Below, in pieces: positions 21,409 through 47,674 of a DNA stretch of 64,000 nucleotides. Position 1 is the stretch's first letter. Every line of letters starts with the position of its first letter. Made by a program: the position numbers and the translations under genes. Origin of the DNA: Granulicella sp. 5B5 (lineage in GTDB: Bacteria > Acidobacteriota > Terriglobia > Terriglobales > Acidobacteriaceae); NCBI RefSeq assembly GCF_014083945.1, contig NZ_CP046444.1, forward strand, positions 3,224,001-3,288,000, given 5' to 3'. The notes under the pieces are model-generated. The model was given only the letters and a program-made list of their open reading frames with translations, did not search any database and was not told the DNA's origin.

Positions 21409-21450
21409 GCTTCTTTCTCTAGGCACGTCACGTCCGTTCGACAGCCTGTT

Positions 21451-21620: not shown

Positions 21621-21639
21621 ATTTGGCCCCGGCGATACT

Positions 21640-22339: not shown

Positions 22340-22358
22340 TCTGCTGCCCAAGAACGCT

Positions 22359-22412
22359 CGTCATTTCGACCGAAGCATCGCGGCTTCATCGCGATGCGAA
22401 GCGGAGAAACCC
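22359..22412 (+). repeat. dispersed hairpin repeat, copy C
   Basis: TCATTTCGACCGAA, stem GCATCGC-(GGCTTCATC)-GCGATGC, then GAAGCGGAGAAACC, 20 nt after the rhaM stop. Confidence 0.85.
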
Positions 22413-22436
22413 CTGTATTTGTCTTTGTTGTTGCCT

Positions 22437-22494
22437 ATTTTCCTCTGCGACCTTTGCGGCTTTTCCTTTGCGTCCTCTGCGTTAAAGCTTTTGC
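22437..22494 (+). repeat. CCTTTGCGTCCTCTGCG-type dispersed repeat
   Basis: CTTTTCCTTTGCGTCCTCTG within a CCTCTGCG/CCTTTGCG-rich stretch; further copies at 32169 and, inverted, at 42695. Confidence 0.65.
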
Positions 22495-22758
22495 CGCAGC
22501 GAGAGCCGAAGGCGCGAGCATACCATGTCAACCCACGAGAGGTGAGAGCGACAGATAAGTTGCTCAATCAAAACGCCTTACAGCGGAAAATCAAAAACAC
22601 GTTCGCCGCCTCAACCTTCTATACTTAAAGTAGAGAAAGAGAGCAGAAAGGTTCGCCGCGCCGACCGCGATCAGACCTCCACAAGTCCACCCTCAACCGC
22701 TTTTCACTCAAGACTTTAGATCGAAAAGTATGGGAGGGGAGGGGTGGGGGCTAGATCA

Positions 22759-23397: not shown

Positions 23398-24851
23398 GCG
23401 CTTGCTCCCTTGCTGCGGCTCTTCCACCAGTCGCGGAAGCTCTGCTTCGGGATGGCCTTCAGGTCGCGATACTTAGTCCAGCCCCCCGCCATGCCAGGCA
23501 GGTTCTCCAACTGATCACCCTTCCGGAACAGCATCTGCCCAGCCTGTGCCAGCCGCTGCGCCGCCTCATACCGCCGCTGGCTCTGGAACGCCGCAGCCGC
23601 ACCCTGCATGGCCAGGTTCTCCACCGCCAGCTTGCCGCCCAGCGTCGCCTGGTCCTCGCGCACCACGCGCCCGCGCAGGTGAATCAGGATCTCCGGAATA
23701 TTGATCTTCACCGGGCAGACCTCATAGCAAGCGCCACACAGCGTCGACGCATACGGCAGGGAACGCGAGTGCTCCAGCGACTGCAGCTGCGGCGACAGGA
23801 TCGCCCCAATCGGTCCCGAGTAGATCGATCCATACGCATGCCCACCCGTCTCGCGGTACACCGGGCAAGCGTTCAAACAAGCGCCGCACCGGATGCACTC
23901 CAGCGTCTCGCGTTCCATCTCGTCATGCAGTAGCTTCGTGCGCCCGTTGTCCAGCAGGATCACATGGAACGCCTTCGGCCCATCACCCGCATGCACACCG
24001 CACCACAGCGAGTTGTACGGATTCATCCGCTCCCCCGTCGCCGACCGCGGCAGCAGCTGCAGAAACACTTCAAGGTCCTCGAACCGCGGGATTACCTTCT
24101 CGACGCCGATCAGCGAGATCAACACATCCGGCATCGTCAGGCACATCCGCCCATTGCCCTCGGACTCGACGACACACACACCACCCGTCTCCGCAATCGC
24201 AAAGTTCGCGCCGCTTACACCGATCTTCACCTTCAGGAACCGCTCCCGCAGATACGCCCGCGCTGCCCCGGTCAGATCCTCCGGCTCGGCCGTCAACTCC
24301 GGCCGATGCATCGTCTCGCGGAACAGATCACGCACCTCAAACCGGTTGCGATGTAGCGCCGGAACCACAATGTGCGAGGGCTCATCGTGGCCCATCTGCA
24401 CAATCATATCGGCCAGGTCTGTCTCAATCGGAGTGATGCCCGCGGCCTCCAGCGCCACGTTCATCTGCACCTCATCCGAGGTCATCGTCTTCACCTTGAT
24501 GACCTCGACATGAGAGTTGCCCTCCGAGTATTGCCTAATCAGCCCAATAGCAATCGCATTGGCCTCATCCGCATCGCGGGCCCAGTGCACCTTGCCGCCA
24601 GCCAGCTCGCAGTTCTTCTCAAACTCAACCAGGTACTCGTCGAGATGCCGCAGTGTATGCGCCTTGATCGCACTAGCCGTATCGCGCAGCTGCTGCCAGT
24701 CCGGCATCTCCTCCACGCGCAGAGCACGCTTGCCGCGAATCGTATCCGTCGCGCGGCGCACATTGGCGCGAAGCTGATCGTTCTTCAGCGCGGTCTTCGC
24801 CGCAACCGGAAACGCCGCGGCTCTGTCTGTCTTGCCAACGCGAACGCTCAT
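23394..24851 (-). CDS. lutB: lactate utilisation iron-sulfur protein LutB
   Basis: 485-aa iron-sulfur subunit of the LutABC L-lactate oxidation system. The N-terminal DUF162-type half (GVSGANFAIAETGGVCVVESEGN) is followed by two ferredoxin-like clusters: CIRCGACLNACPVYR (near residue 320) and CGACYEVCPVKINIP (near residue 372), then a C-terminal tail typical of LutB. Start ATG overlaps the lutA stop by ATGA. Here it would oxidise lactate made by the RhaD fusion. Confidence 0.9.
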   Translation of the reverse strand: MSVRVGKTDRAAAFPVAAKTALKNDQLRANVRRATDTIRGKRALRVEEMPDWQQLRDTASAIKAHTLRHLDEYLVEFEKNCELAGGKVHWARDADEANAIAIGLIRQYSEGNSHVEVIKVKTMTSDEVQMNVALEAAGITPIETDLADMIVQMGHDEPSHIVVPALHRNRFEVRDLFRETMHRPELTAEPEDLTGAARAYLRERFLKVKIGVSGANFAIAETGGVCVVESEGNGRMCLTMPDVLISLIGVEKVIPRFEDLEVFLQLLPRSATGERMNPYNSLWCGVHAGDGPKAFHVILLDNGRTKLLHDEMERETLECIRCGACLNACPVYRETGGHAYGSIYSGPIGAILSPQLQSLEHSRSLPYASTLCGACYEVCPVKINIPEILIHLRGRVVREDQATLGGKLAVENLAMQGAAAAFQSQRRYEAAQRLAQAGQMLFRKGDQLENLPGMAGGWTKYRDLKAIPKQSFRDWWKSRSKGASA

Positions 24852-25585
24852 AGCGCAGCTCCCTCGCTCGCAAGAATCTCCGCGATATGCATCGTCCGCA
24901 CAGCCGAGCCTGCGCGATGCAGCCCGCCATAGATCTGCATCAGGCAGCTATTGTCGAGCGCGGTCACAACCTCAGCCCCAGTCTCCACCACGCAGCCCTG
25001 CTTCTCAGCCAGCATCGCCACTGAGACATCGGCGTTCTTCACCGCAAACGTCCCACCGAACCCGCAGCACTGCTCCTTCTTCGGCAACTCCAGCAGCGTC
25101 AACCCGCGCACCTGCCGCAGTAGCCGCACCGGCGCATCGCCCACATGCAGCATCCGCAGCGAGTGGCACGACGGATGGTAGGTCACACTATGCGCAAACG
25201 TCGCGCCCACATCCTCCGTCTGGAGCCGGTTCGCGAGCAGCTCGCTGAACTCAAACACGCGTGGCAGCAGGCTCTTCACATCGGCAAGAAACGCGCTGTC
25301 GTTCTCCGCCTCAGCCATCATTAGATAGTGCTCACGCATCATCGCTACGCAACTGGCAGAAGGCACGCAAACCACTTCGGCATCCCGAAACATCTCCACG
25401 AATCTCCGTACCAGCGGCACAGCTTCGCGATGATAGCCCGTGTTGTAGTGCATCTGCCCGCAACAGGTCTGCGCCAGCGGAAACTCCACCGTATGCCCCA
25501 GCCGCTCCAGCACGCGTGTCACCGCAACACCTGTCTCGGGAAACAGAGTGTCGTTATAGCAGGCTACGAACAGCGAGATGCGCAA
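24848..25585 (-). CDS. lutA: lactate utilisation Cys-rich protein LutA
   Basis: 245-aa Cys-rich-domain protein of the LutABC L-lactate oxidation system. Two CCG-type motifs (TCCGQMHYNTGY and EQCCGFGGTFAVK) are the hallmark. The TTG at 25585 is preferred: it is 4-5 nt after AAAGGAAG and gives the family N-terminus RISLFVACYNDTLFPETG. The frame upstream to 25633 is not conserved. First gene of lutABC, 85 nt downstream of rhaT on the same strand. Confidence 0.88.
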   Translation of the reverse strand: MRISLFVACYNDTLFPETGVAVTRVLERLGHTVEFPLAQTCCGQMHYNTGYHREAVPLVRRFVEMFRDAEVVCVPSASCVAMMREHYLMMAEAENDSAFLADVKSLLPRVFEFSELLANRLQTEDVGATFAHSVTYHPSCHSLRMLHVGDAPVRLLRQVRGLTLLELPKKEQCCGFGGTFAVKNADVSVAMLAEKQGCVVETGAEVVTALDNSCLMQIYGGLHRAGSAVRTMHIAEILASEGAAL

Positions 25586-25670
25586 GGGGCTTCCTTTCAC
25601 CGGGCAATGGCCAAATCGCGTGGCCTTCATCAATTTTACCTATGGAAGAAGAAAGTCACGAGTGAACCAC

Positions 25671-26828
25671 TCAGTGGACCTTCAGATAACTCCCATAGCC
25701 GACCACCACAGTAGATCCGATCAGCAGTGCAAGTCCGCAGCCGACCAACGCTCGCGTCCTCAGGCTCGTTCCGCGCCACTCCTTCAGCGCAATGCCCCAC
25801 AGGTTCGCGAAGATGATGATGCTTGCCATGTGCAGCGTCCAGCTGGCGAAGTCGTACTTGCCCATCTTCGTCTGCCCCATCGAGTAGAAGAAGAACTGGA
25901 AGTACCAGATGATTCCGGCCAGCGCCGCGAACAGGTAGTTCTTGGTCAGCACCTTCCCGCTGATGCGCCCAATATAGTCGCGCGGATTGAAGTCCACCAG
26001 GGTATCGCCCGTCACCGGGGCCGTCCCCATCGGATTATCGCCCGGCGCTCCGCCAAACTGTGCGAACGAGTGGTTCTTCACAATCAGTACCGCAGACCAC
26101 ACGAAGTTCGTAACGAACCCGCCCCACAGCACAACGATCAGCACCGGCAGATTGGACCATAGGTCCCTCCGGCCACCTGCCACCAGGTGTACTCGCGTGA
26201 TGTCTCCGATGGGCTTGCCCGCAGCCAGGCCAAACGCAAAGAACGAGCTCATAATGCCCGCGAACACCGCGACCGCAAGGCCTTTGATGAAAGAGAAGTC
26301 GCGTTCGCCGGCGATCGCCTTCTCCTCCTCGGTCACCTCATGTTCCTTGGAGTAGCCCGCCGCTCCGCTGACCCCGATCGCCAACAGGCACATAAAGACG
26401 CCGACCAGAATCACCTGTCCCGAACGCTCGTTCAAAATGCTGTGCATCTGCCCGTAGTAAATCGGTGGGATCAATGTCCCAAACGCCGTGCAGAAGCCCA
26501 GCGCAATCGCGTATCCCAGTCCCAGTCCCAGATAGCGGATCGCCAGTCCAAACGTCAGTCCGCCGACGCCCCACAGTATCCCCATGAGCATCGGCCAGAA
26601 GAGGCTGGCATCCGGCGAGCGATGCGCTTCTCCGAGAATCTTGAAGACATGCGGCACAAAGATGCTCGCAATCAGCGTTGGAGCGATCAGCCACGCGGCC
26701 ACGCCTTGGATGATCCAGTAAATCTCCCACGACCATCGCTTGATGCCGCGAAACGGAATAAAGTTGCTGGCAGAGGCGAGTCCGCCCAGCCAGTGATAGA
26801 TGACGCCGATAAACGGATTAGGTCCCAC
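25671..26828 (-). CDS. rhaT: L-rhamnose-proton symporter
   Basis: Inner-membrane importer of L-rhamnose, 385 aa with about ten predicted helices. The N-terminus (LASASNFIPFRGIKRWSWEIYWI) and the segment ILWGVGGLTFGLAIRYLG are characteristic of RhaT. GTG start with GAGG 6 nt upstream. Divergent from rhaI and upstream of lutABC, so uptake and lactate oxidation may be one transcript. A GGA-N7-TCC palindrome lies upstream. Confidence 0.92.
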   Translation of the reverse strand: MGPNPFIGVIYHWLGGLASASNFIPFRGIKRWSWEIYWIIQGVAAWLIAPTLIASIFVPHVFKILGEAHRSPDASLFWPMLMGILWGVGGLTFGLAIRYLGLGLGYAIALGFCTAFGTLIPPIYYGQMHSILNERSGQVILVGVFMCLLAIGVSGAAGYSKEHEVTEEEKAIAGERDFSFIKGLAVAVFAGIMSSFFAFGLAAGKPIGDITRVHLVAGGRRDLWSNLPVLIVVLWGGFVTNFVWSAVLIVKNHSFAQFGGAPGDNPMGTAPVTGDTLVDFNPRDYIGRISGKVLTKNYLFAALAGIIWYFQFFFYSMGQTKMGKYDFASWTLHMASIIIFANLWGIALKEWRGTSLRTRALVGCGLALLIGSTVVVGYGSYLKVH

Positions 26829-26931
26829 TTCGGTCCTCGACTTTATGCCGCACAGTGTATGCCTTGTGGGTTGCAGGGCACAGCATCGGCAGGATATGTG
26901 GCGCTGTCATCCTATCCTATCGCCTGTACCA

Positions 26932-26950
26932 TTTGGAAATAATATCCCTA
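26932..26950. promoter_or_regulatory. candidate rhamnose operator 1 (rhaT-rhaI gap)
   Basis: TTTGGA-AATAATA-TCCCTA: half-sites GGA and TCC around a 7-nt A/T centre, the same layout as at 29770-29788 before rhaD. It lies in the 266-nt divergent region. Confidence 0.45.
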
Positions 26951-27094
26951 TTGGACGTCCACCGCCGAACCCGTATGGACAGCTTTCTAGCTGCTCATTG
27001 TTTTCCTCACTTGCGCAGGAAAGTTTCAATACATAGTATAAGTCCTCTATGAAACTTCGCGGCCGCCGCGCCGCTCCGGTTCGAGGTGCTCTTC

Positions 27095-28300
27095 ATGTCG
27101 ACTAATTCCATCTCCAACGCTGCGCAATCCCGCATTCACAAAGCCCTCGACGCCTTCGCCATTGAGATCCCCTCCTGGGGATTTGCCAATACAGGCACGC
27201 GCTTCGGCAAGTTTTCACAGCCTGCCGCCGCTACCAACCTTGAAGAGAAGTTTGCCGACGCGGGTGAGGTCAATCGCCTCACCGGCGTCACTCCCACGCT
27301 GGCACTGCATGTCCTTTGGGATATGCCAAATGGTGTTGCGGATGCTGAGAAGATTCAATCGCTTGCCAAGCAGTATGGCGTCCGTGCAGGCTCGATCAAT
27401 CCCAATCTCTTTCAGGAACCCGAGTACAAGTTCGGCTCCATCTGCAATCCCTCCGCTGAGGTCCGCAAGAAAGCCACGCAGCACCTGCTTGACTCGGTCG
27501 CCATCGGCAAGGCCGTCGGCTCTGCCGAGGTCTCCGTCTGGGTCGCCGACGGCTCCAACTACCCCGGCACGCAGAGCATCTCGCGCCGCATCGGCTGGAT
27601 GAAGGAGGCCTTCGCCGCCGCCCATGAGGCCCTCGCTCCCGGCCAGACTCTGCTCATCGAATACAAGCCCTTTGAGCCTGCTTTTTATCACACGGATATC
27701 GCCGACTGGGGCATGTCCCTTGAGCTCTGTCGAGCTGCTGGCCCCCAGGCCCGCGTGCTGGTCGATACCGGCCATCACTATCAGGGCACCAACATCGAAC
27801 AGATCGTCTCGTGGCTTATTGCGCTCGATGTCCTCGGTGGCTTCCACTTCAACGATCGCAAGTACGCCGATGATGACCTGACGCTCGGGTCCATCGACCC
27901 CTATCAGGTCTTCCGTATCTTCCATGAGATCCACGCCGCGCAAGAGAGCAACAGTGCCTTCACCGCTCCGGCCTACATGATCGATCAGAGCCACAACCTC
28001 AAGGGCAAGATGGAGGCGATGATCCAGACCGTCGTGACGGCGCAGGAACTCTACGCCCGAGCCGCCCTCGTCGATCAGGCTGAGCTCGCCGTTCTGCAGG
28101 ACAGTTGCCAGCTCGTTGCAGCTGAGGAACTCTTTCGTGGCGCTTTCTGGACTGACGTTCGGCCCATTGTGCAGCAGTGGCGTGAGCAGCGCGGTCTGCC
28201 TGTCGATCCCCTTGCCGCTCTCAGGTCCAGCGGTTACGTCGAACAGATAGCAGCGGCCCGTGCGGCAAAAAACTCTGTAGGCCAGAGTTCCTACGCCTGA
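27095..28300 (+). CDS. rhaI: L-rhamnose isomerase (RhaI type)
   Basis: Converts L-rhamnose to L-rhamnulose. The 401-aa TIM-barrel protein matches the Pseudomonas-type isomerase rather than E. coli RhaA: IEIPSWGFANTGTRFGKF near the start, IEYKPFEPAFYHTD, DTGHHYQGTNIEQIV and FHFNDRKYADDDL, which supply the metal-binding Glu, Asp and His. ATG 27095 is chosen (GAGG 8 nt upstream) over GTG 27086. First + strand gene of the rhamnose block. Confidence 0.92.
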   Translation: MSTNSISNAAQSRIHKALDAFAIEIPSWGFANTGTRFGKFSQPAAATNLEEKFADAGEVNRLTGVTPTLALHVLWDMPNGVADAEKIQSLAKQYGVRAGSINPNLFQEPEYKFGSICNPSAEVRKKATQHLLDSVAIGKAVGSAEVSVWVADGSNYPGTQSISRRIGWMKEAFAAAHEALAPGQTLLIEYKPFEPAFYHTDIADWGMSLELCRAAGPQARVLVDTGHHYQGTNIEQIVSWLIALDVLGGFHFNDRKYADDDLTLGSIDPYQVFRIFHEIHAAQESNSAFTAPAYMIDQSHNLKGKMEAMIQTVVTAQELYARAALVDQAELAVLQDSCQLVAAEELFRGAFWTDVRPIVQQWREQRGLPVDPLAALRSSGYVEQIAAARAAKNSVGQSSYA

Positions 28301-28503
28301 GCCTCCAATAGTCGAAAATAATTGTCTGCCTATGCTGTTCGCTCATCGCGAAAGCTGCTCATCTGTAGGCGCTTGCACTTCCTCAATGGTATGCTTCCTC
28401 CAGTAGGAATCCATTAGGGAAACGCCGCCTGAGTGTTGCGTTGGTCCAGGTTTGTTAGCCAGCCACATCCACTCCGCCCGTCGTTGCTCGCGATGAGGGA
28501 AAC

Positions 28504-29724
28504 ATGCCCGGAAAGACAAAGGCCCGCCGCCTTTACCTGATCCCTGTCCTGACCAAGGCGCTCGACATCCTTGAGCTGCTGCAGACGGAAAATCAGCCCA
28601 TGGTCCTCGAGAGCATCCATAAGCGGACCCGCATCTCCAAGACCACCGTCTATCGCATCCTCAAGACGTTGGTCCACCGCGGCTATGTGGGGCAGGGGGC
28701 TGACCGCCAGTATCGCCACATCGCTCGCCCGCGCAAGCTCCGCTTTGGCTTTGGCGGTCAAAGCGCGGAGATGCCGTTCTCCGAGGCCATGACCGCCAGT
28801 CTGCGCCAGGCTGCTGCTGCTGTCGGTGTCGATCTCGTCGTCCTCGATAACCACTACGACCCGCAGGTGGCTATCGAGAACGCCGAGACCTTCATCCGCG
28901 AGCGTGTCGACGTCATCATCGAGTTCCAGGTCGACGAGCACATCGCCCCCATCATCGCCGACAAGATCGCCGAAGCCGGCATCCCGCTCATCGCCGTTGA
29001 CATCCCCCATCCCCGCGCCACGTTCATCGGCGTCGACAACTATCGCGCGGGCCTCGAAGCCGGCGGCCTGCTCGCCGACTACTCCCTCAACTACTGGGAG
29101 GGCAAGATGGACTGGATGGTCGGGCTAGACATCGAAGAGGCCGGCCAGCTCGTCCAGAGTCGTATCACCGGCGCCTTCCAGGGCGTCAAGGCGCGTCTGC
29201 CGAACCTCCCTGTCGAGTCCTTCGTCCGCATCGACGGCCGCGGCATGCGCGACAAGAGTTACAAAGTCATCCTCGACTTCCTCAACCGTCATCCTAAGGA
29301 TAAGCACATCCTCGTTGCAGCTGCCAACGACACCAGCGCGATGGGCGCCATCGCCGCTGTCCGCGAGCTGGGCCGTGAAAAGCACGTCGCCGTCGTCGGC
29401 CAGGATTGCGTCGAGGAGATGCTCCGTGAGATGCAGCGATCGAACAGTCCCGCCATCGGTTCCATCTCGCATGAGGTTCAGCTTTACGGCCCACGCCTCA
29501 TCGACCTCGGCCTCTCGCTGCTGCGTAGTGAGACCGTTCCGCCTTACAACTACGTCGAGCACCGCGCCGTCACGCCGGACCTCGCCTCGCGCGCGCTGGA
29601 GGCTCTCTTGCTGTCACCTTCTCACTTTTCCTCGTCGGCTTCATCGGAAGCGCCACCCCGCGCCGCGCCTCCAAAGAAGCGCGCGAGCGGAAAGAAATCA
29701 ACACAAAGGGCCTTGGCACGCTAG
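28504..29724 (+). CDS. IclR-type HTH fused to a sugar-binding (RbsB/LacI-like) domain: rhamnose regulator
   Basis: Predicted transcription factor of 406 aa with an unusual architecture. Residues ~14-62 form an IclR-type winged helix (VLTKALDILELLQTE, RTRISKTTVYRILKTLVHRGYV). Residues ~95-375 are a periplasmic-binding-protein type sugar domain (AIENAETFIRERVDVIIEF, ADKIAEAGIPLIAVDIPHP, VAAANDTSAMGAIAAVREL, VVGQDCVEEMLREM). The C-terminus is a low-complexity Ser/Ala/Lys tail. No signal peptide, so it acts in the cytoplasm. GAGGG lies 5 nt before ATG. Its place between rhaI and rhaD suggests that it senses rhamnose or a pathway intermediate. Confidence 0.8.
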   Translation: MPGKTKARRLYLIPVLTKALDILELLQTENQPMVLESIHKRTRISKTTVYRILKTLVHRGYVGQGADRQYRHIARPRKLRFGFGGQSAEMPFSEAMTASLRQAAAAVGVDLVVLDNHYDPQVAIENAETFIRERVDVIIEFQVDEHIAPIIADKIAEAGIPLIAVDIPHPRATFIGVDNYRAGLEAGGLLADYSLNYWEGKMDWMVGLDIEEAGQLVQSRITGAFQGVKARLPNLPVESFVRIDGRGMRDKSYKVILDFLNRHPKDKHILVAAANDTSAMGAIAAVRELGREKHVAVVGQDCVEEMLREMQRSNSPAIGSISHEVQLYGPRLIDLGLSLLRSETVPPYNYVEHRAVTPDLASRALEALLLSPSHFSSSASSEAPPRAAPPKKRASGKKSTQRALAR

Positions 29725-29769
29725 CCGAGGTTTTTCCTTGCAGGACATTTTTCAGTGATGGATGTCTCT

Positions 29770-29797
29770 ATAGGAATAGTTGTCCTATTGGTATAAT
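29770..29797 (+). promoter_or_regulatory. candidate operator and -10 before rhaD
   Basis: Palindrome ATAGGA-ATAGTTG-TCCTAT (29770-29788) directly followed by a consensus TATAAT (29792-29797), 72 nt before the ATG. A protein bound here would cover the -35 region, fitting repression. Confidence 0.55.
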
Positions 29798-29868
29798 GTG
29801 TGGGATCATCAATACGCCGCCGACGACCCGTCGAGGACGAACCCACAGGAAACCACACAGGCATCTCT

Positions 29869-32073
29869 ATGACTACCGCTAGCAAGCTCCGCTTCCTCGA
29901 AGACCGCTGGGATGAGGCCGTTGCCTCCAAGCTCGACGCCCCCGAACTCCTCCGCTATCGCTCCAACCTGCTCGGTTCCGATCTCCGCCTCACCAACTTC
30001 GGTGGCGGCAACACCAGCTCCAAGATCGACGAAGTCGACCCCCTCGACGGCCAGACGAAGAAGGTTCTCTGGGTCAAGGGCTCTGGCGGCGATCTCGGCA
30101 GCATCAAGCGCTCCGGCTTCGCCACGCTCTATCTCGATAAGGTCCTCGCCCTCGCAAACAGTTATCAGGGTGTAGCCCGTGAAGACGAGATCGTCTCGAT
30201 GTATCCGCTCTGCACCTTCGGCAACAACCCCGTCGCAGCGTCCATCGACACGCCACTCCACGGCTTCCTCCCGTTCCCGCACGTCGACCACCTCCACCCC
30301 GACTGGGGCATCGCTCTCGCGGCCTCGGCCAACGGCAAGCAAAAAATGGAGGAGTTCAATCAGCAGTTCGGCCACAAGATCGTCTGGGTCCCCTGGCAGC
30401 GCCCCGGCTTCGAGCTCGCACTGATGCTGCGCGATGCCGTCGCCGCGGTCCCTGGCTGCGACGGCGTCGTCCTCGGCGGCCACGGCCTCTTCACATGGGG
30501 CAACACGCAGCGCGAAAGCTACCTCAACACCATCACGATCATTGACCAGATCGGTCAGTTCATCGCGCAGCACGCGGAGAAGAAGTCCACGAGCTTCGGC
30601 GGCGCAAAGCACGCTTCGCACGACGACCGCCAGGCCCTCGCCACGAAGATCATGCCCGTCATCCGTGGCCGAGTCTCCGCAAAGCAGCGCGTCATCGGCA
30701 GCTTCACGGATGCCCCTGACGTCCTTGCCTTCGTGAACTCGCACTCAGCGGAAAAGCTCGCGCACCTCGGCACCAGCTGCCCCGACCACTTCATCCGCAC
30801 CAAGATCCGCCCGCTCTTCGTCAACTGGGACCCCAAGACTGATCCAGCAGGCATCGAGCCTCTGATCGACCAGGCCCTCGAAACCTACCGCGCCGAGTAC
30901 GCCGACTACTACAAGGCCCACGCCCTGCCCGACTCGCCCGCCATGCGCGACGCCAGCCCCACCGTCGTCCTCATCCCCGGCATCGGCATGTTCAGCTTCG
31001 GCAAGAACAAAACCGAGTCCCGCATCACCGGCGAGTTCTACACCAACGCCATCCACGTCATGGAAGGCGCCGGCCACATGGACGAGGATAACTGTCCCGC
31101 GGTGCTTCCGCAGGCTGGTCCTGCCGCAAAGACTGAAGCCTTCACAACGCACCAGAACTACGTCGCACTCCCACCCAGCGAAGCCTTCCGCATCGAGTAC
31201 TGGGCACTTGAAGAGGCGAAGATTCGCCGCCAGCCGCCCGAGAAGGAGCTCTCCCGCCGCATCGCTCTCATCGTCGGCGGAGCCAGCGGCATCGGCCGCG
31301 AGACCGCTCTACTCGCCACCGAGCGCGGCGCGCACATCGTCGTCGCCGACCTTTCGCTCGAAGCCGCACAGAAGGTCGCCGATGAGTGCAAGGCCATCGG
31401 TGGCAAGGAGTGCGCGATCGCCACGGTCATCGACATCCGCAAGCGCGACGCGATCAAGCAGGCGCTCAACGCCACCATCGCAGCCTTCGGCGGCGTAGAC
31501 CTCCTCATTAACACCGCAGCCATCTTCCCGTCTTCGCCCGACGGCATCATCACCGATGCGCAGTGGGGCATCACGCTGGAGATCAACGTCACCGCCAACT
31601 ACCTGCTCACTGACGAAGCCTCATCCGTCTTCAAGGCGCAGGGAATCTCCGGCAGCGTCGTCCTCACCAGCTCTGCCAACGCCGTCGTCGCCAAACGTGG
31701 CAGCGAGGCGTATGACGTCTCCAAGGCCGCGCTCTCGCACCTCGTCCGCGAGCTCGCCGTCACCTACTCGCCTCTGCTGCGCGTCAACGGCATCAGCCCG
31801 GCTACAGTCGTCAAGGGTTCCACCATGTTCCCGCGCGACCGCGTCAAGGCCTCTCTGACGAAGTACAACATCGCCTTCGAGGAGTCTGCGAGCGACGATG
31901 AACTCCGCAACCTCCTCGCGAAGTTCTACGCCAAACGCACCCTCACGCACGTCCCCATCGACCCCAAAGACTGTGCCGAAGCGATCCTCTTCATCGGTGG
32001 CCCCAAGGCACCCGTCACCACCGGCCACCTCGTCCCGGTCGACGGCGGCCTCGTCGAAGCCTACCTCCGCTAA
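29869..32073 (+). CDS. rhaD: bifunctional rhamnulose-1-phosphate aldolase / lactaldehyde dehydrogenase (SDR)
   Basis: Fusion enzyme of 734 aa. Residues ~1-430 are a class II aldolase domain (LTNFGGGNTSSKI, HVDHLHPDWG, LGGHGLFTWG) that splits L-rhamnulose 1-phosphate into dihydroxyacetone phosphate and L-lactaldehyde. Residues ~462-734 are a short-chain dehydrogenase (NAD motif GGASGIGRE, NTAAIF, YDVSKAA) that would oxidise lactaldehyde to lactate. ATG 29869 is preferred to an upstream in-frame start because it lies past the promoter. Lactate would then be taken up by the nearby LutABC. A good terminator follows. Confidence 0.92.
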   Translation: MTTASKLRFLEDRWDEAVASKLDAPELLRYRSNLLGSDLRLTNFGGGNTSSKIDEVDPLDGQTKKVLWVKGSGGDLGSIKRSGFATLYLDKVLALANSYQGVAREDEIVSMYPLCTFGNNPVAASIDTPLHGFLPFPHVDHLHPDWGIALAASANGKQKMEEFNQQFGHKIVWVPWQRPGFELALMLRDAVAAVPGCDGVVLGGHGLFTWGNTQRESYLNTITIIDQIGQFIAQHAEKKSTSFGGAKHASHDDRQALATKIMPVIRGRVSAKQRVIGSFTDAPDVLAFVNSHSAEKLAHLGTSCPDHFIRTKIRPLFVNWDPKTDPAGIEPLIDQALETYRAEYADYYKAHALPDSPAMRDASPTVVLIPGIGMFSFGKNKTESRITGEFYTNAIHVMEGAGHMDEDNCPAVLPQAGPAAKTEAFTTHQNYVALPPSEAFRIEYWALEEAKIRRQPPEKELSRRIALIVGGASGIGRETALLATERGAHIVVADLSLEAAQKVADECKAIGGKECAIATVIDIRKRDAIKQALNATIAAFGGVDLLINTAAIFPSSPDGIITDAQWGITLEINVTANYLLTDEASSVFKAQGISGSVVLTSSANAVVAKRGSEAYDVSKAALSHLVRELAVTYSPLLRVNGISPATVVKGSTMFPRDRVKASLTKYNIAFEESASDDELRNLLAKFYAKRTLTHVPIDPKDCAEAILFIGGPKAPVTTGHLVPVDGGLVEAYLR

Positions 32074-32080
32074 CCAACAA

Positions 32081-32116
32081 GGCACCGCTCTCGCATGTAT
32101 CGAAGCGGTGCCTTTT
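32081..32116 (+). terminator. Rho-independent terminator after rhaD
   Basis: GGCACCGCT / AGCGGTGCC, 9 bp perfect, then TTTT. It separates rhaD from rhaB, so rhaB likely has its own promoter or depends on read-through. Confidence 0.8.
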
Positions 32117-32168
32117 CATTTCTTCTTTGTCATTCCCGCAGGGAATCTGCTTCTGTCTTGGTGTTGCT

Positions 32169-32228
32169 TGTTTTCCTTTGCGTCCTCTGCGGGCTCTTCC
32201 TTTGCACCCTCTGTATGAACGCTTTTGC
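32169..32228 (+). repeat. CCTTTGCGTCCTCTGCG-type dispersed repeat
   Basis: TTTTCCTTTGCGTCCTCTGC again, as at 22437, with a degenerate second half (CCTTTGCACCCTCTG). Confidence 0.65.
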
Positions 32229-32256
32229 CTTTCTGGATCGGCCACAAATCAGGTAC

Positions 32257-32383
32257 CCCGAGGCTTTAGCCTCGGGTCTCATAGGCCCATCAAAGAGTGA
32301 GGGCTTTAGCCCTCCAGTTTGCTTTTGCCTTTGTTGCTTTACATGGAGCGTGACAATCGAAGGGGCATGGCTTCAGCCGTGCC
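32257..32383. repeat. three GGCTTYAGCC hairpins in the rhaD-rhaB gap
   Basis: CCCGAGGCTTTAGCCTCGGG (32257-32276), GAGGGCTTTAGCCCTC (32299-32314) and GGCATGGCTTCAGCCGTGCC (32364-32383). The centre is constant while the outer arms differ but stay paired. The rest of the 363-nt gap has no gene. Confidence 0.8.
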
Positions 32384-32436
32384 ACAAAAGCAAAGCAGAA
32401 GGCCGGTTTAACCGCTGAGGTACGTTTGGTCATAGC

Positions 32437-33873
32437 ATGATGAGCGCCACTGCACCCCAACCCATCGACCTCCGAGCCCTAGTCGCCATCGACTTAGGCG
32501 CCGAATCCTGCCGCGTCTCCCTCCTCCGCTGGAAGAACAGCGAGCCGCATATCGAGCTCGTTCACCGCTTCCCCAACGGCGCCACAGAAACCGCCGACGG
32601 CCTCCACTGGAACCTCGAAGGCATCCTTACCGGTCTCGACGAAGGCCTCCGCAAATGCGCAACCATCGCCACCGAAGGGATCCGCTCCATTGCAGTCGAC
32701 GGATGGGGCGTCGACTACGTCCGCCTCGACAGCAATGGTAAGCCCGTATCTGAACCCTTCTGCTACCGCGACGAGCGCACCGTCACTGCCGAAGAGTCCC
32801 TCAACGACCGCATCAGCCCGCAGCGCATGCGTGAGCTCACCGGCATCGGCCTCCTGCGCATCAACACGGCCTACCAGCTCTTCGCAGACGATGCGAGCGT
32901 CCGTTCGCTCCCCTGGCTCAACCTGCCCGAGTACATCCTCTACTCCCTCGGCGCGCGTCCCGTCTCCGAACGCACTCTCGCCAGCCACACCCAGATCCTC
33001 AGCATGCCCACCGAGCAATCGCCTGGCGAGTGGTGCGACGAGATCGTTCACGAGCTCGACATCCCCGCATCGGCAATGCCTGAGCTGGTGAACCCCGGCA
33101 CCGATGTCGGCCCGCTCACCGGCCCGCTCGCCGCTCTACCGGCCTTCCAAAACACCCGCCTGATCGCACCCTGCTGCCACGACACAGCCTCCGCCATCGC
33201 CGCCATCCCCGACGCCGCCGACGACTGGGCCTACATCAGCTCCGGCACCTGGTCGCTCGTCGGCACGCTGCTCCCGCAGCCCAACAACTCCCAGCGCGCC
33301 CGCGATGAGAACTTCACTAACCTCATCGGCGCCGATGGCACCATCTGCTTCCACAAGAACGTCAATGGCATGTGGCTCCTCCGCCAGTGCATGGAGACCT
33401 GGACCGCCGAAGGCGCGCATCTTGAGATCACCGAGCTCGTCGAGGCCGCCAGCAAGGCTCCTGTGCCCACCTATACGCTCGACGTTGACGACCCTGATTT
33501 GCTCCTCAGTGGTCGCATGCCGCAGCGCATCAATGCGCAGCTCCACCGTCGCAACCTGCCCGAGCTCAGCACTCATCCCAACGACGCCCCCGCAATGGCC
33601 GCCTTCCTCTTCCACTCCCTTGCCGCGCGCTACGCGCAGGTGCTCGCCAGCGTGGCAGCCATCACCGGCAAACCGCTGCGTCGCATCCACATCATGGGCG
33701 GCGGTAGTCAGAACGCCTTCCTCAACCGCCTGACTGAACAAGCGACCGGCCTCGAAGTCCACCGGGTGGGTACCGAGTGCTCCACCGTCGGCAACTTCGC
33801 CGTCCAGCTAGCCACCCTCGAACAAACCCCTGGCCCACGTCCCTCAGCTCATTGGGCCAGCCGCCTCGCATAA
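32437..33873 (+). CDS. rhaB: rhamnulokinase
   Basis: Phosphorylates L-rhamnulose to L-rhamnulose 1-phosphate with ATP. The 478-aa FGGY-type kinase shows the N-terminal phosphate loop VAIDLGAESCRVSLLRW, the sugar site GWGVDYVRLD, the second ATP motif SSGTWSLVGT and the adenine motif IMGGGSQNAFLNRL. Two ATGs stand in tandem at 32437 and 32440. It is separated from rhaD by a terminator and repeats. It completes the rhamnose pathway in the window. Confidence 0.93.
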   Translation: MMSATAPQPIDLRALVAIDLGAESCRVSLLRWKNSEPHIELVHRFPNGATETADGLHWNLEGILTGLDEGLRKCATIATEGIRSIAVDGWGVDYVRLDSNGKPVSEPFCYRDERTVTAEESLNDRISPQRMRELTGIGLLRINTAYQLFADDASVRSLPWLNLPEYILYSLGARPVSERTLASHTQILSMPTEQSPGEWCDEIVHELDIPASAMPELVNPGTDVGPLTGPLAALPAFQNTRLIAPCCHDTASAIAAIPDAADDWAYISSGTWSLVGTLLPQPNNSQRARDENFTNLIGADGTICFHKNVNGMWLLRQCMETWTAEGAHLEITELVEAASKAPVPTYTLDVDDPDLLLSGRMPQRINAQLHRRNLPELSTHPNDAPAMAAFLFHSLAARYAQVLASVAAITGKPLRRIHIMGGGSQNAFLNRLTEQATGLEVHRVGTECSTVGNFAVQLATLEQTPGPRPSAHWASRLA

Positions 33874-34211
33874 CCGCAGAGCTTGCAAAAATCTCTTGCA
33901 AATTTGCGGGCAAACACGCCCTGTCAACCCCAGTTTCCCCGTAAGCCCAACAAATAAATAGCGATAGCCTCTAATAAAGGACAGTTCTCAAACCGCTATC
34001 ATGGAAATAGGGACAACTGCCGGGAACCGATCAGCAAAACCCCTCGTAGCACCGTCTACGGAAGCAGCCTCCGCTAACCTCAATCTTTCCCATATCATAC
34101 GCATAAACGGCTATAGAATCAGTTGCTTAACCCCGGGATCACCCCGTAAGTGACTGATTCTGCTAGATGCCTCAACTACATAGGGAGGGGGGAGGGGTAT
34201 CCCTCCAATCG
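33874..34211. other. non-coding gap between convergent rhaB and NUDIX genes
   Basis: 338 nt without a gene. It contains one long imperfect hairpin, AGAATCAGT-TG-CTTA / TAAG-TG-ACTGATTCT (34115-34161), which may end transcription from either side. Confidence 0.5.
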
Positions 34212-34673
34212 CTAAATCAGCTTCCCATCCGCAAGATCGCGGATCAAGGTCAGGTCCGCAGCCAGGAAGTCGTAATCAGGCAGCCGAGGCACAGGCGTCC
34301 AAAGCATCTGCTGGAAGATATTGTTCGTCATCTCACCCTGGTACTCGCGCACGGTAAAGAAGGCTATCTCGATCGCGCCGCCATTACGGTAGTTGTGCCG
34401 GATAGTCGTGATCCGCGGTCCAATCGTCGCCACAATGCCAAGCTCTTCGGTCAACTCCCGGACCAGCGCCTGCTCCGGCGTCTCACCCGGCTCGATCTTG
34501 CCGCCTGGGAACTCCCACTTCAGCCCCATGGGTTGGTCGGGCCGCCGCTGGCAGATAAACACCTCCCGCGCCTCGCCTTCGCCGCGCAGGATAAGCGCAG
34601 CCACAACCCTGCGCAGCGGCCGTAGGGCAACTGCGGGGCGTCGTCCTGTGAGCTTACGAATGGGCTCCTTCAC
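34212..34673 (-). CDS. NUDIX hydrolase (MutT-like)
   Basis: 153-aa pyrophosphatase of the MutT class. A perfect Nudix box, GKIEPGETPEQALVRELTEELGI, provides the metal-binding Glu residues. The flanking sequence (VICQRRPDQPMGLKWEFPGG) resembles 8-oxo-dGTP or CTP pyrophosphatases that clean the nucleotide pool. The substrate cannot be set from sequence alone. Same strand as the HAD gene 88 nt upstream. Confidence 0.85.
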   Translation of the reverse strand: MKEPIRKLTGRRPAVALRPLRRVVAALILRGEGEAREVFICQRRPDQPMGLKWEFPGGKIEPGETPEQALVRELTEELGIVATIGPRITTIRHNYRNGGAIEIAFFTVREYQGEMTNNIFQQMLWTPVPRLPDYDFLAADLTLIRDLADGKLI

Positions 34674-34761
34674 GGTTCTCCCTGCTCAGTGTAGACGTTC
34701 GTGAGCGGTGGTTTGGTGCGGGTCCCGTTGCAGAGTGGGTTCGTGCCGTGGAAATAGCCCC

Positions 34762-35484
34762 TTACGGCGCAACCGTCGCCGGATAGTAAACCGCCCATCC
34801 TTCGGTCCTGCTGCGCCGTAACAGCTCCACCGATGGATTGACCGGGAACGCTCCACGGGCGATAGCAAGCATCGCCGCATCATGCACCGAGTTCCCGAAC
34901 ACCGCGTCTGGTGCAGTGACCCCCGCCCCATGCAGTGCCGTCACCTTGCCTTCATCCGTAGGAACGTCGATTAGCGTATCCGTGGCTATGCCATCCTTAG
35001 CCACCACCCGTGCGGAGAGTACGCGGTTCGCGGAGATATTGAATCGCGTTACACCTTCTTCGATCACCCAGTCATTGGTGGAGCTCACTGCCCATATCTC
35101 AGCCCCAGACGCCTGGAGCGTCGCTACCAACTCCTGCATCTCCGGAAAGATGTTGGGTTCGATATGTGTCCGGAAGAACTCTGCCGCAGCTTGCCGCAAG
35201 GTCTCGACTGCGATGCCACGATACACCTGAACCATCTCGCCACAGATCGCCAACTCCGAGACCTGGCCCTGCTTGTAGCCCTGATAGCGTCCTTCCATCC
35301 ACTCGACCTGTGCCGGGGCCAGCAGCCCGTTCTGCATCGTCCAGCGCATAAAACTCGAGCCGGCATCTCCCGACCAGAGTGTCCCATCGCAATCGAAGAC
35401 AGCGATCTGTGGACGCAGCGCGTGGACGCGACTATGGAACTCTGCAGTTGTCAGGACGGGTGCGGCAATGAGACTTTCGGACAA
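34762..35484 (-). CDS. HAD-superfamily phosphatase (SerB/IB-like)
   Basis: 240-aa phosphohydrolase with the HAD nucleophile motif VFDCDGTLWSGD, motif II Ser in WAVSSTND, and a late FGNSVHDAAML acid motif in place of the usual GDxxxD. The TTG at 35484, with AGGAG 9 nt upstream, is taken as the start; the frame is open to 35595 but without a ribosome site. The cap and overall order resemble phosphoserine-phosphatase-type enzymes. The physiological substrate is unknown. Confidence 0.75.
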   Translation of the reverse strand: MSESLIAAPVLTTAEFHSRVHALRPQIAVFDCDGTLWSGDAGSSFMRWTMQNGLLAPAQVEWMEGRYQGYKQGQVSELAICGEMVQVYRGIAVETLRQAAAEFFRTHIEPNIFPEMQELVATLQASGAEIWAVSSTNDWVIEEGVTRFNISANRVLSARVVAKDGIATDTLIDVPTDEGKVTALHGAGVTAPDAVFGNSVHDAAMLAIARGAFPVNPSVELLRRSRTEGWAVYYPATVAP

Positions 35485-35607
35485 AACGTTCAACTCCTGC
35501 AGCGTGAACCGCGATAGGGTAGTGAGGTCAATGTTCCTCAGAAGTTCAGTAGACCAGCTTCGCGAGGTTCGTACAAACATTCCGCACGTTGGCAAAACAA
35601 CAAGAAC

Positions 35608-35618
35608 CTGTCTGACAG
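35608..35618. promoter_or_regulatory. palindrome CTGTCTGACAG upstream of uxaC
   Basis: Perfect 11-bp palindrome 60 nt before the uxaC start. The same TGTCTGAC core recurs in the uxaE leader (41307-41314). The TGTC-N-GACA form is typical of FadR-type GntR operators. Confidence 0.45.
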
Positions 35619-35678
35619 TGTAAGGAGAACTTTGATACGCTGCTGCGGTAAGCTTGTGACGAAAGTGGAGAAAGTTTG

Positions 35679-37091
35679 ATGTTGAACGGAAATCGGTTGT
35701 TCCCCGCAGAGAGTGCAGCGCGCGCAGTCGCTGTGAAGCTATACGACATCGTTCGCGACCTCCCCATCATCAGCCCACACGGTCACACTGACCCGCAGTG
35801 GTTCGCTGACAACAAGCCGTTCCCAAATCCTACGGCGCTGTTTCTGCAGCCGGATCACTATGTCTTCCGGATGCTGTACTCGCAGGGCGTGAGCCTGGAG
35901 TCGTTGGGAGTGCCGCAGCAGGGAGCGTACCCGGATCCGAACCCGGCGCTGGTGGACCCGCGTGAGGCGTGGCGTATCTTCGCTAGGCACTATTATCTGT
36001 TTCGCGGTACTCCGACGCGGTTGTGGCTCGACTATGCCTTTGAGAACCAGTTTGGCCTGAAGGAGCGGCTGAGCGAGCACAATGCCGACGAGTACTACGA
36101 GACGATCGACAAGGAGTTGCAGACGCCGGAGTTTCTGCCGCGGACTCTCTTTGAAAAGTTCAATATCGAGGTCCTCTCGACGACAGATACTGCGATCGAT
36201 ACGTTGGAGCAGCACGAGAAGATCAAGGCGTCGGGGTGGACGGGGCGTGTGCTGCCGACGTTCCGTCCGGATTCGGTGGTAGATGCGGAGTACATCGGGT
36301 TCCATGACAACATCCGGAAGTTGGGTGAGCTGACCAATGAGGATGTCTCCAGTTGGAAGGGGTATCTGGATGCGCTGCGTAACCGGCGGAAGTACTTCAT
36401 TGAGCATGGCGCGACGGCGACGGACCATGGGCACCTGACTGCGATGACAGCGGATCTGCCGTTCAATGAGGCTGCGGCGTTGTATGAGCGCATCTACACG
36501 GGCAAGACGCGTCCTGGTGACATCGAGCTGTTCCAGGCGCAGATGCTTACCGAGCTTGCGGGCATGAGCGTGGAAGATGGGCTGACGATGCAGCTGCATC
36601 CAGGGTCGATCCGGAACCACAACCAGAAGGTGTATGAGAAGTTCGGGCGCGATAAGGGAGCGGACATTCCTTCGCCTACCGAGTATGTGCGTTCGCTGCG
36701 GCCGCTGCTGAACAAGTATGGCAATGAGCCCAACTTCATCTTCATTCTGTTCACGCTGGATGAGTCGACGTTCTCGCGGGAGCTGGCGCCGCTGGCGGGG
36801 CACTACCCCTGCCTGAGGCTGGGGCCGCCGTGGTGGTTCCATGACTCGCCGGAGGGGATGATGCGGTTCCGGGAGACGGCGACGGAGACGGCTGGGTTCT
36901 ACAACACGGTCGGGTTCAACGACGATACGCGGGCGTTCCTGTCCATCCCGGCGCGGCATGATGTGGCGCGTCGTGTCGACTGTGCGTTCCTGGGACGGCT
37001 GGTTGCGGAGCACCGGCTGGATGAGGATGAGGCGGTCGAACTGGCGCATGACCTGACGGTTGGATTGGTGCGGAAGGCGTACAAGCTGTAA
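35679..37091 (+). CDS. uxaC: glucuronate/galacturonate isomerase
   Basis: Converts D-glucuronate to D-fructuronate and D-galacturonate to D-tagaturonate. The 470-aa protein shows the N-terminal metal-type motif ISPHGHTDPQWFADN, SLESLGVP, the central TDTAIDTLEQH and the late WWFHDSPEGM. ATG 35679 with GGAG 8 nt upstream (a TTG codon precedes it). First gene of the uronate group and the first + strand gene past the base-skew switch. Closed by a large hairpin. Confidence 0.93.
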   Translation: MLNGNRLFPAESAARAVAVKLYDIVRDLPIISPHGHTDPQWFADNKPFPNPTALFLQPDHYVFRMLYSQGVSLESLGVPQQGAYPDPNPALVDPREAWRIFARHYYLFRGTPTRLWLDYAFENQFGLKERLSEHNADEYYETIDKELQTPEFLPRTLFEKFNIEVLSTTDTAIDTLEQHEKIKASGWTGRVLPTFRPDSVVDAEYIGFHDNIRKLGELTNEDVSSWKGYLDALRNRRKYFIEHGATATDHGHLTAMTADLPFNEAAALYERIYTGKTRPGDIELFQAQMLTELAGMSVEDGLTMQLHPGSIRNHNQKVYEKFGRDKGADIPSPTEYVRSLRPLLNKYGNEPNFIFILFTLDESTFSRELAPLAGHYPCLRLGPPWWFHDSPEGMMRFRETATETAGFYNTVGFNDDTRAFLSIPARHDVARRVDCAFLGRLVAEHRLDEDEAVELAHDLTVGLVRKAYKL

Positions 37092-37130
37092 CCCCCCACC
37101 CCTCCCCCCGGGTACTTTTTGATTCAAAGC

Positions 37131-37199
37131 CCTCAGCGGATTGGAGTTAGGAGCGGACTTGTTAAGGTCTGATCCCCCTCCTATCCGCTGAGGGTTTTT
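37131..37199 (+). terminator. large terminator hairpin after uxaC
   Basis: CCCTCAGCGGAT / ATCCGCTGAGGG, 12 bp perfect, with an inner AGGAG/CTCCT pairing and five T after the stem. The remaining ~160 nt to the GH16 gene show nothing. Confidence 0.8.
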
Positions 37200-37359
37200 G
37201 CAGATGTGCCCGTAGCTCGCCTAGTTCTATTGTAGCGGTTTGAGACGGGTGTTTCGTTCGTTCTAAGTGGTTTATAGTGAGTCATTTAGAAGATCATAGG
37301 CTTGACAGATTTTGGGTGGTAGAAACGGGCCGCGATGCTGCCGACGCATGGCTCCAGAT

Positions 37360-38216: not shown

Positions 38217-38648
38217 TCAAGGTTGGAAGGGATTATGCCAGCGGAGGTCTGAGAAGCGCGCAAAGTCGCTGTCGTTGGTGTGTACGACGGCGTTGTGTTC
38301 GATGGCTATAGCGGCGATGGCCGCGTCAGTGAATATCTGGCCGAGCGCATTGGCCTGGACAGCGAGCTTCTGGAGGATGCCCCAGTGGTCGCGACCTGGG
38401 TAAAGGACTTGAACGTGCGGGTATTTAAGCCAACCGTCCGCGAAAGCAATAGCCTGCTGAATACTGAGACGGGATGCGCCAAAGGCTGCGCCGGTTGAGA
38501 TGCGGATGAACGCGTGCAGGCAAATCACGGGTATACCGATGGATTCGACTCCATGCAAAGCATCTTGCCAATAGGCGCGCGCCTCAGAATAGAAGGGGGA
38601 ATTGTAGTTATGGGCGTACAGCAGCAGATTCGTGTCGGGCGCGATCAC
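38217..38648 (-). CDS. vapC: PIN-domain toxin, VapC-like, with altered acidic residue
   Basis: 143-aa PIN ribonuclease-like protein. First acidic site in APDTNLLLYA; later Asp in FTDAAIAAIAIEH and TNDSDFARF. The usual second acidic residue, Glu in the family pattern xEFLR, is Ala here (LHAFIRI), so one of four metal ligands seems lost. GTG 38648 begins inside the antitoxin gene, a 41-nt overlap typical of toxin-antitoxin pairs. The stop is 17 nt before the start of the GH16 gene on the same strand. Confidence 0.78.
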   Translation of the reverse strand: MIAPDTNLLLYAHNYNSPFYSEARAYWQDALHGVESIGIPVICLHAFIRISTGAAFGASRLSIQQAIAFADGWLKYPHVQVLYPGRDHWGILQKLAVQANALGQIFTDAAIAAIAIEHNAVVHTNDSDFARFSDLRWHNPFQP

Positions 38649-38892
38649 GCTTGTCCTCGTAGGCTTCAATCTCCATCTGGTAGTCGATCTCCTTCGGAGT
38701 AAGCCCCTTCCACTTTTCGGGTGTTTCGAGAGCAAACGATTCGCCCACAGCAGTTCTGTTTCGTGGATCGTCGATGGCAAAGTACTTACGGAGCAAGCGG
38801 TTTGCGATTGCGTCGATAGTCTCGCCTGAGCGGCGCGACTCTTCCTCCAACTTGCTGAGGATGTCCGGATTGAGATCGACGGCGATGCTCAT
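38608..38892 (-). CDS. vapB: VapB-type ribbon-helix-helix antitoxin
   Basis: 94 aa; the N-terminus MSIAVDLNPDILSKLEEESRRSGETIDAIANRLLRKYF is a ribbon-helix-helix DNA-binding pattern (shown here as family identification), and the acidic C-terminal part would bind and neutralise the PIN protein. ATG 38892 is chosen because the fold starts there. Upstream and overlapping with vapC, so likely autoregulated. Confidence 0.75.
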   Translation of the reverse strand: MSIAVDLNPDILSKLEEESRRSGETIDAIANRLLRKYFAIDDPRNRTAVGESFALETPEKWKGLTPKEIDYQMEIEAYEDKRDRARHESAAVRP

Positions 38893-39041
38893 AGGTTGAT
38901 GATGGAAGGGTTGATTGATGTATGTCAAGGAGCTGTCTGCACACAATTGAGAAAGTTGAGAAAGTGAACCAATATGAATCAGACTGTCTGTGTTGTGAAG
39001 AAGCCTTGTAACCTTACTAGAGGACGCGGAAAGAGGTTGCC

Positions 39042-39980
39042 TTGCCCGATCTAAAGCTTTTCACAACTGATGGCGATATTGCGGTTGAACTGCGTAGCCG
39101 TTCGGTTGCTGTCGAGCGCTCCTTGCAATCATTAATCGAAAAAAATCTTGAAGTGATGCTTGGCGTTCGTTTTTTAGACTCTGAATACTCGACAGGAAGA
39201 GTGCATGGCGGCAGGATCGATTCTTTAGGGCTAGATGAAGATAACTTACCTGTCATCGTGGAATACAAACGAAGAGTTGACGAGAATGTCATCAATCAAG
39301 GGCTCTTTTACCTAGATTGGCTGATGGATCATCAAGCTGAGTTTCAGCTACTTGTAACCAAGAAGCTTGGCGCTCAGGAAGCCGAGCGAATCGATTGGAG
39401 TGGTCCTCGGCTCATATGTATTGCGAGTGACTTCACCCGTTATGACGAACATGCTGTCCAGCAAATCGCGCGAGGTATCGATCTAATTCGCTACAGGAGA
39501 TACGGTGATGACATGCTTCTCCTTGAGTTGACGAATGGTACCTGGTCGGCAACAGAAGGCACTCCGACTGTTCAGAATCCTGAGTTTAAAGCAGATTCCA
39601 GCGCACATCGACTAACTCCAGGCCAAAGAGGGTTTTTCGAGGCATTCTCTAAAAGTTCTCCGCAGCTACAGGCGCTTTATGGTGATGTGGAGCAATTCAT
39701 TAAAAGTCTTGGCGACGACGTGCAGGTAAAGCAGTTGAAGCACTACAAAGCTTTTCGGCGTTTTCGCAATTTTGCGACGATGGAGATTCATTCAGCTGGG
39801 AATGAGATAGTACTCGGGCTTAAGGTCAATATTGACTCCGTAAGCTTAGAAGATGGATTCATTCGAGATGTACGAGAGATCGGCCACTTCGGAACAGGGA
39901 ATGTTCAGATTCGGATTGCCGATCAAGCCGATTTTGAAAGAGCCAAGGAATCAATGATTGCGGCGTATAACGCCGAATAG
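39042..39980 (+). CDS. PD-(D/E)XK nuclease-like protein with DUF5655 domain
   Basis: 312 aa. The N-terminal half has the nuclease core Asp60 ... Glu74-x-Lys76 (RIDSLG, VIVEYKRR), as in NucS/DUF91-like PD-(D/E)XK proteins. The C-terminal half (~215-310; LKHYKAFRRFRNFATMEIH) matches DUF5655. TTG start with AAGAGG 5 nt upstream. Base use is visibly less GC-rich than in its neighbours, and with vapBC it looks like an acquired patch. Cellular role unknown; DNA repair or defence are possible. Confidence 0.72.
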   Translation: MPDLKLFTTDGDIAVELRSRSVAVERSLQSLIEKNLEVMLGVRFLDSEYSTGRVHGGRIDSLGLDEDNLPVIVEYKRRVDENVINQGLFYLDWLMDHQAEFQLLVTKKLGAQEAERIDWSGPRLICIASDFTRYDEHAVQQIARGIDLIRYRRYGDDMLLLELTNGTWSATEGTPTVQNPEFKADSSAHRLTPGQRGFFEAFSKSSPQLQALYGDVEQFIKSLGDDVQVKQLKHYKAFRRFRNFATMEIHSAGNEIVLGLKVNIDSVSLEDGFIRDVREIGHFGTGNVQIRIADQADFERAKESMIAAYNAE

Positions 39981-47537: not shown

Positions 47538-47586
47538 AGGCTTGACGGTGGCTACGCTCACGCCTTCGGCTCTCGCTGCGGTAGAT

Positions 47587-47642
47587 GCAGGTCTCTCCGC
47601 TACGCATCGCGATAAGACTGCGATGCTTCGGTCGAGATGGCA
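47587..47642 (-). repeat. dispersed hairpin repeat, copy D (inverted)
   Basis: On the minus strand: TCTCGACCGAA, stem GCATCGC-(AGTCTTATC)-GCGATGC, then GTAGCGGAGAGACCTGC. It fills the gap between two convergent genes. Confidence 0.85.
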
Positions 47643-47674
47643 CATCTGTGGCGTGGGCGAGGGTTTCCGGGGCT

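Follow-up and report, generated by a model that had tools for sequence, protein, structure and literature searches.

Results

Gene content and base composition of the window

The window analysed here is a stretch of 64,000 nucleotides, bases 3,224,001-3,288,000 of a genome assembled as a single contig of 3,928,701 bases. Near its left end a tRNA-Ala gene (CGC) is followed by a lower-GC stretch (together within 3,893-17,996) that encodes two large carboxypeptidase-regulatory/TonB-like outer-membrane proteins and a zinc carboxypeptidase, and may represent a tRNA-associated island. Further right lies an L-rhamnose utilisation block (21,599-33,873), defined by Pfam matches and synteny. It contains a rhaM-type mutarotase, a TIM-barrel isomerase-like protein, an IclR-type regulator, an aldolase II/SDR fusion and, as its last gene, a rhamnulokinase-like FGGY carbohydrate kinase (32,437-33,873, + strand). 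The spacer that follows is largely occupied by a dispersed repeat of ~230 bp (33,986-34,211, +), found by searching the genome with the spacer. Beyond it, again by Pfam, are genes for a NUDIX hydrolase (34,212-34,673, -), a HAD-like hydrolase (34,762-35,595, -, with an uncertain TTG start) and the glucuronate isomerase UxaC (35,676-37,091, +, listed with a TTG start). Two smaller features lie to the right of uxaC. At 38,217-38,900 a PIN-domain protein (Pfam) is found beside a small ORF region, which we take to be possibly a VapBC-type toxin-antitoxin pair. The protein at 39,042-39,980 has matches to DUF5655 and, weakly, to the NucS C-terminal domain, and is missing from the corresponding place in the related genome G002 (see below).

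The base composition of the window changes abruptly within this gene cluster. The GC skew is -0.145 over positions 1-35,400 and +0.248 over 35,401-64,000, with the minimum of the cumulative skew at 35,394. All 2-kb windows starting between 1 and 34,001 have a negative skew, and all those starting between 35,001 and 62,001 a positive one. A model with a single change point gained 748 ln units in likelihood, with its optimum at 35,868 and positions 35,370-36,215 within 5 ln units of it; the latter interval is referred to as the composition change. The skew at third codon positions is negative in 16/16 ORFs to the left of 35.6 kb, on both strands, and positive in 19/19 ORFs to the right, for ORFs that were picked by hand rather than taken from a gene-caller set and among which the strand of 19,735-21,426 is unsettled. 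Outside the window, the C-rich segment extends leftward to ~3,188 kb of the genome (~3,188-3,260 kb, ~72 kb in all), and the G-rich side runs on to ~3,324 kb. The strand-composition switch is genuine and strong, and holds whichever way the genes run. The initial annotation had described the + strand as C-rich to the left and G-rich to the right whatever the gene direction, and the third-position skew agrees with this; the six 60-base counts that it gave all proved exact on recount. It placed the switch at 35,300-35,900; the break in gene order lies at 33,874-34,211.

Gene order in related genomes

The region was compared with 80 uxaC loci from related genomes and with genome stretches of two relatives, G002 and G006. 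G002 is a single contig of 6.24 Mb with dnaA at base 467 and, judging by its similarity to locus L056, is probably Granulicella mallensis. The NUDIX and HAD genes are kept beside uxaC in 6/80 loci (L053-L057 and L062). In seven loci (L054, L055, L056, L057, L062, G002 and G006) NUDIX is preceded by three genes, here called X1-X2-X3, for an MgtE_N/CBS protein, a glycosyltransferase and an Nramp transporter (Pfam); these represent about six species, since L056 and G002 are close (most proteins 94-99% identical). The adjacency of X3 and NUDIX seen in these 7 loci is lost in the window genome and in L053. The latter is the only one of the six loci in which the rhamnose kinase precedes NUDIX, as it does in the window. 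L053, with uxaC 92% and rhamnose-block proteins 86-97% identical, is also the nearest relative found, and it too has a skew switch (-0.12 / +0.19).

The two sides of the window have separate counterparts. The rhamnose block (21,599-33,873) matches G002 1,302,886-1,314,600 and, in part, G006 3,137,993-3,145,770. The block from NUDIX onwards (34,212-64,000), G-rich from ~36 kb on, is colinear with G002 1,937,711-1,975,027 in the same orientation, with insertions and deletions (e.g. at 37.4-41.3 kb). The rhamnose and NUDIX blocks are 623 kb apart in G002 and 1.7 Mb apart, on one contig, in G006. This places a rearrangement junction between the rhamnose kinase and NUDIX, at 33,874-34,211. Gene order across this point is therefore broken with respect to relatives, not conserved, yet the nearest relative shares the junction. 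That the junction is common to L053, with its 92% identical uxaC, makes it doubtful that any inversion was recent, as the initial annotation had put it.

Chromosome-wide skew and the replication origin

The chromosome was sampled as 40 evenly spaced 8-kb pieces and then as targeted stretches, 30.4% of it in total. The sole dnaA of the genome is at 2,139,838, ~1.12 Mb from the switch in the window, with yidC and dnaN (the latter at 2.145 Mb) nearby and a sharp C-to-G skew switch beside it at 2,149,390. A gradual G-to-C crossing was found at 170-175 kb; by arithmetic, the antipode of dnaA is 176 kb. The skew minimum is ~9 kb from dnaA, with yidC, dnaN and YchF on the far side, still in C-rich DNA, and oppositely oriented copies of the ~230-bp repeat (2,147,193, + and 2,152,034, -) flank it.

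Between the origin and the opposite crossing the skew is a patchwork. The 115 strong 8-kb bins of the sampled, incomplete chromosome contain 22 changes of sign, 11 in each direction, so that the switch in the window is one of many. The expected sign is found in 48/56 strong bins on the left arm and 39/59 on the right arm. The window belongs to the right arm, its switch being 1.11 Mb from the origin, and on this arm the + strand is expected to be G-rich. The right half thus conforms, whereas the left is anomalous, a C-rich segment (1-33,873, reaching back to ~3,188 kb) with a composition opposite to the present direction of replication. The canonical DnaA box is TTWTNCACA. No cluster of it was found in the 64-kb window, but it is also missing from the 40 kb around dnaA itself, so the scan is uninformative. 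A search for dif half-sites gave 0 matches. It had been remarked that neither dnaA nor DnaA boxes were visible; dnaA is indeed not in the window, but the absence of boxes carries no weight when there are none at dnaA either. In the 30% sampled, the C-to-G change in the window is one of 11, and the antipodal pair is that at 2.149 and ~0.17 Mb.

A mirror-placed partner of the junction

X2 has a single match in the window genome, at 1,029,138-1,030,184 (-). X1 and X3 flank it, and X1-X2-X3 is found reversed at 1,027,687-1,031,511. This site is 1.112 Mb from dnaA, compared with 1.118 Mb for the junction in the window; measured from the skew minimum the two distances are 1.122 and 1.109 Mb. As read from gene order, a mirror-placed and reversed partner of this kind is the signature of a symmetric inversion centred on the origin. 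Re-inverting the origin-containing segment (1.028-3.258 Mb) puts X1-X2-X3 back beside NUDIX. The composition also changes at the reciprocal junction, from a skew of -0.03 to +0.12 at 1,010-1,027 kb (the terminus side) to -0.13 to -0.35 at 1,027-1,050 kb (the origin side); farther out, at 988-1,010 kb, the DNA is C-rich again. In G006, a G-rich patch (3,128-3,168 kb, skew +0.07 to +0.21) with C-rich flanks (~-0.22 at 3,108-3,124 kb, and ~-0.1 at 3,200 and 3,260 kb) holds the rhamnose block, there encoded on the minus strand.

We consider it likely, with a probability of roughly three in four, that the switch lies at a rearrangement junction, formed when the origin-containing segment that is now 1.028-3.258 Mb was inverted in an ancestor shared with the nearest relative. 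The rhamnose operon would thereby have taken the place of X1-X2-X3 beside NUDIX. An inversion that is symmetric about the origin would keep leading-strand DNA leading and would not change polarity by itself, so the switch needs a patch on the left arm that was already of opposite polarity. The left-arm breakpoint would have fallen inside such a patch of pre-existing opposite composition, a state like that of G006, and this patch would now abut correctly polarised DNA, giving the skew switch. Dispersed repeats like that of the junction spacer may have supplied the break or simply marked it; no copy of the spacer element was found at the reciprocal junction (1.028 Mb). The switch had initially been attributed to an origin or to the end of an inversion. 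Gene order and the mirror-placed site at 1.028 Mb favour the second, whereas dnaA-yidC-dnaN at 2.14-2.15 Mb argue against the first.

Some observations sit less easily with this inversion. The composition change is offset from the gene-order junction by 1.2-2.3 kb, to the right, and forcing the change point to 34,211 costs 50 ln units. The interval concerned is that of NUDIX and HAD (34,212-35,595), which belongs by gene order to the right block but is C-rich here (-0.07). It is G-rich or neutral in 7/7 relatives measured, which rules out gene direction as the cause of the offset. A conversion tract or a second small breakpoint event might account for it. Moreover, before the inversion the rhamnose kinase is predicted to have adjoined the genes now at 1,010-1,027 kb, an adjacency not seen in the G002 and G006 stretches read, in which the rhamnose block lies elsewhere. 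A history in several steps is possible; other rearrangements exist, and the chromosome was read to 30%.

Alternative explanations of the C-rich side

The C-rich segment of ~3,188-3,260 kb inside an arm expected to be G-rich is what a local inversion within the arm, of ~70 kb (3.188-3.258 Mb) and unrelated to the origin-centred one, would leave behind. After such an event X1-X2-X3 would be expected at ~3.188 Mb, the far end of the segment, but the actual site is at 1.028 Mb. The left-flank genes of L054-L057 and L062 are, in addition, unmatched within 3,104-3,348 kb outside the NUDIX block. A local inversion as the only event is therefore improbable, although one of ~70 kb may have occurred in addition to that around the origin.

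Horizontal acquisition or transposition of the C-rich side, as an island of foreign composition, is less probable still. The tRNA-Ala gene (3,893-3,968) and the lower GC content (0.54-0.58) between 4 and 16 kb would suit an island, but other members of the genus also have the rhamnose block, with proteins 55-87% identical (86-97% in L053), and the polar repeats within it are those of the chromosome at large.

A replication origin at 35.4 kb, whether primary or an atypical second one, would give a change from C-rich to G-rich and of this strength, but is very improbable given the dnaA, yidC and dnaN neighbourhood with its own C-to-G switch at 2.14-2.15 Mb and a crossing at the antipode, a C-rich side spanning just ~72 kb and ten further C-to-G changes in the sampled bins.

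Orientation of the junction repeat

The repeat in the junction spacer has a conserved core (34,074-34,199) that occurs 48 times in the genome and includes a hairpin and a terminal G-run. The mean column identity is 87% over 43 aligned copies, and in the hairpin (columns 43-87 of A1, 43 copies) 3/16 predicted pairs have compensatory change. The orientation of the copies follows the local skew in 44/48 cases, the 4 exceptions all being at an absolute skew of at most 0.122. Five copies found later served as a held-out check; three agree and two disagree, both at weak skew. An earlier tally of 41/43 excludes 15 short antisense matches (18-23 bits) and becomes 41/58 if they are included; these matches lay inside full copies and were treated as hairpin artefacts.

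The present arm is a poor predictor of orientation, with 15/21 copies plus on the left arm and 16/27 minus on the right. Gene orientation as the cause is unsupported, as genes have no skew bias (395/778 called genes on the G-rich strand, using a simple home-made gene caller) and the genes flanking the copies occur in all four arrangements (17, 14, 9 and 7, with 1 incomplete). The repeat was also rejected as a general marker of skew flips (1/39 copies against 0/40 control points, Mann-Whitney p = 0.49).

Searching other genomes gave one weak match among 12 relatives. At L053:8380-8503, a diverged copy in the opposite orientation is found at the same junction (58 bits). Among the relatives covered by these searches, the repeat appears almost exclusive to this species. 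There were 0 matches in viral contigs and, in the window, none in Rfam at the gathering threshold. Three Y1_Tnp genes are present in the genome and 0 copies of the repeat lie within 1.5 kb of them; a Y1 enzyme acting in trans is possible.

Polarity of other repeat families

When the intergenic DNA of the sampled 30% was searched de novo for repeats, seven families with at least 4 copies emerged. Relative to the local skew, 215/221 copies have the one orientation of their family, a count in which not all copies are independent because stretches fetched for the 48-copy element are over-represented in the sample and neighbouring repeats are merged in the largest family (151 loci). When the skew was shuffled among copies in 500 trials, the mean was 127 and the maximum 143. 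At an absolute skew above 0.13, 185/185 copies have the family orientation, and with coding DNA included 239/246 copies are polar.

The same pattern can be seen in the window, where the repeat search placed members on both sides of the switch. A repeat at 21,545-21,640 (+), polar in 19/19 local copies, recurs reversed on the G-rich side at 47,586-47,660 (-), polar in 25/25 local copies. One of TTTGCGTCCTCTGCG type is located at 32,100-32,185 (+) and is polar in 16/16 local copies. Directly after uxaC, on the G-rich side, a second repeat related to that of the spacer (37,092-37,260, -) is opposite to the 33,986-34,211 copy. Repeat orientation flips together with the skew and tracks the skew patch rather than the present arm, which fits insertion predating the inversions. 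In relatives, 12/17 copies (2 families) in the G002 stretches and 4/4 (one family) in G006 are polar, the copies being few; the 80 relative loci gave mostly coding matches and are uninformative on repeats.

We would accept or doubt in equal measure the general proposition that every sizeable family of dispersed intergenic repeats in this chromosome, the ~230-bp one included, was inserted with a single orientation with respect to the fork, probably via a single-stranded lagging-strand template. The repeats would then record past directions of replication permanently and independently of base composition, and would show the many skew patches to be inverted DNA. The likeliest mechanism would be that Y1-type transposases insert the repeats into the lagging-strand template, with selection for polar motifs as its rival. 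In the literature searched, no near-complete polarity of several unrelated repeat families was found described.

Discussion

The finding at this locus is ordinary in kind, an inversion scar that mimics an origin; it is the polar repeats that merit pursuit. An origin-like skew switch is an instructive trap; the scar can be recognised by its reciprocal site, placed in mirror image. The repeats, a by-product that matters more than the switch itself, keep their orientation fixed relative to composition across the sampled chromosome, like a fossil compass. If several unrelated families are oriented by replication strand, they provide a second, slow-changing marker of replication direction. If true, this compass could date and order inversions where the skew has been scrambled, and the polar repeats would point to a replication-coupled spread of REP-like elements in Acidobacteriota.

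Comparison with known systems

Inversions symmetric about the origin and terminus, seen as X-alignments, are frequent in bacteria (PMC5850607); Acidobacteria are not mentioned there (0 occurrences). The inversion proposed here has in common with them the mirror-placed breakpoints, the reversal of the origin segment and the retention by moved genes of their leading-strand orientation. It differs in that the breakpoint joins DNA of opposite polarity, leaving a skew switch.

Among mobile elements, IS608 and ISDra2 insert into the lagging-strand template and the same has been proposed for REP elements, according to PMC6006769. The repeats described here share with IS200/IS605 and with REP/TnpAREP (Y1) that they are short intergenic elements with hairpins and an orientation fixed relative to strand composition. 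Here, however, no transposase link was found, with 0 copies within 1.5 kb of the three Y1 loci, and the main element, at ~230 bp, is larger than REP. The Bordetella repeated element (BRE) is likewise a dispersed intergenic repeat of a high-GC genome, but in PMC3110155 it is reported not to be co-oriented with replication, whereas the repeats of this chromosome are.
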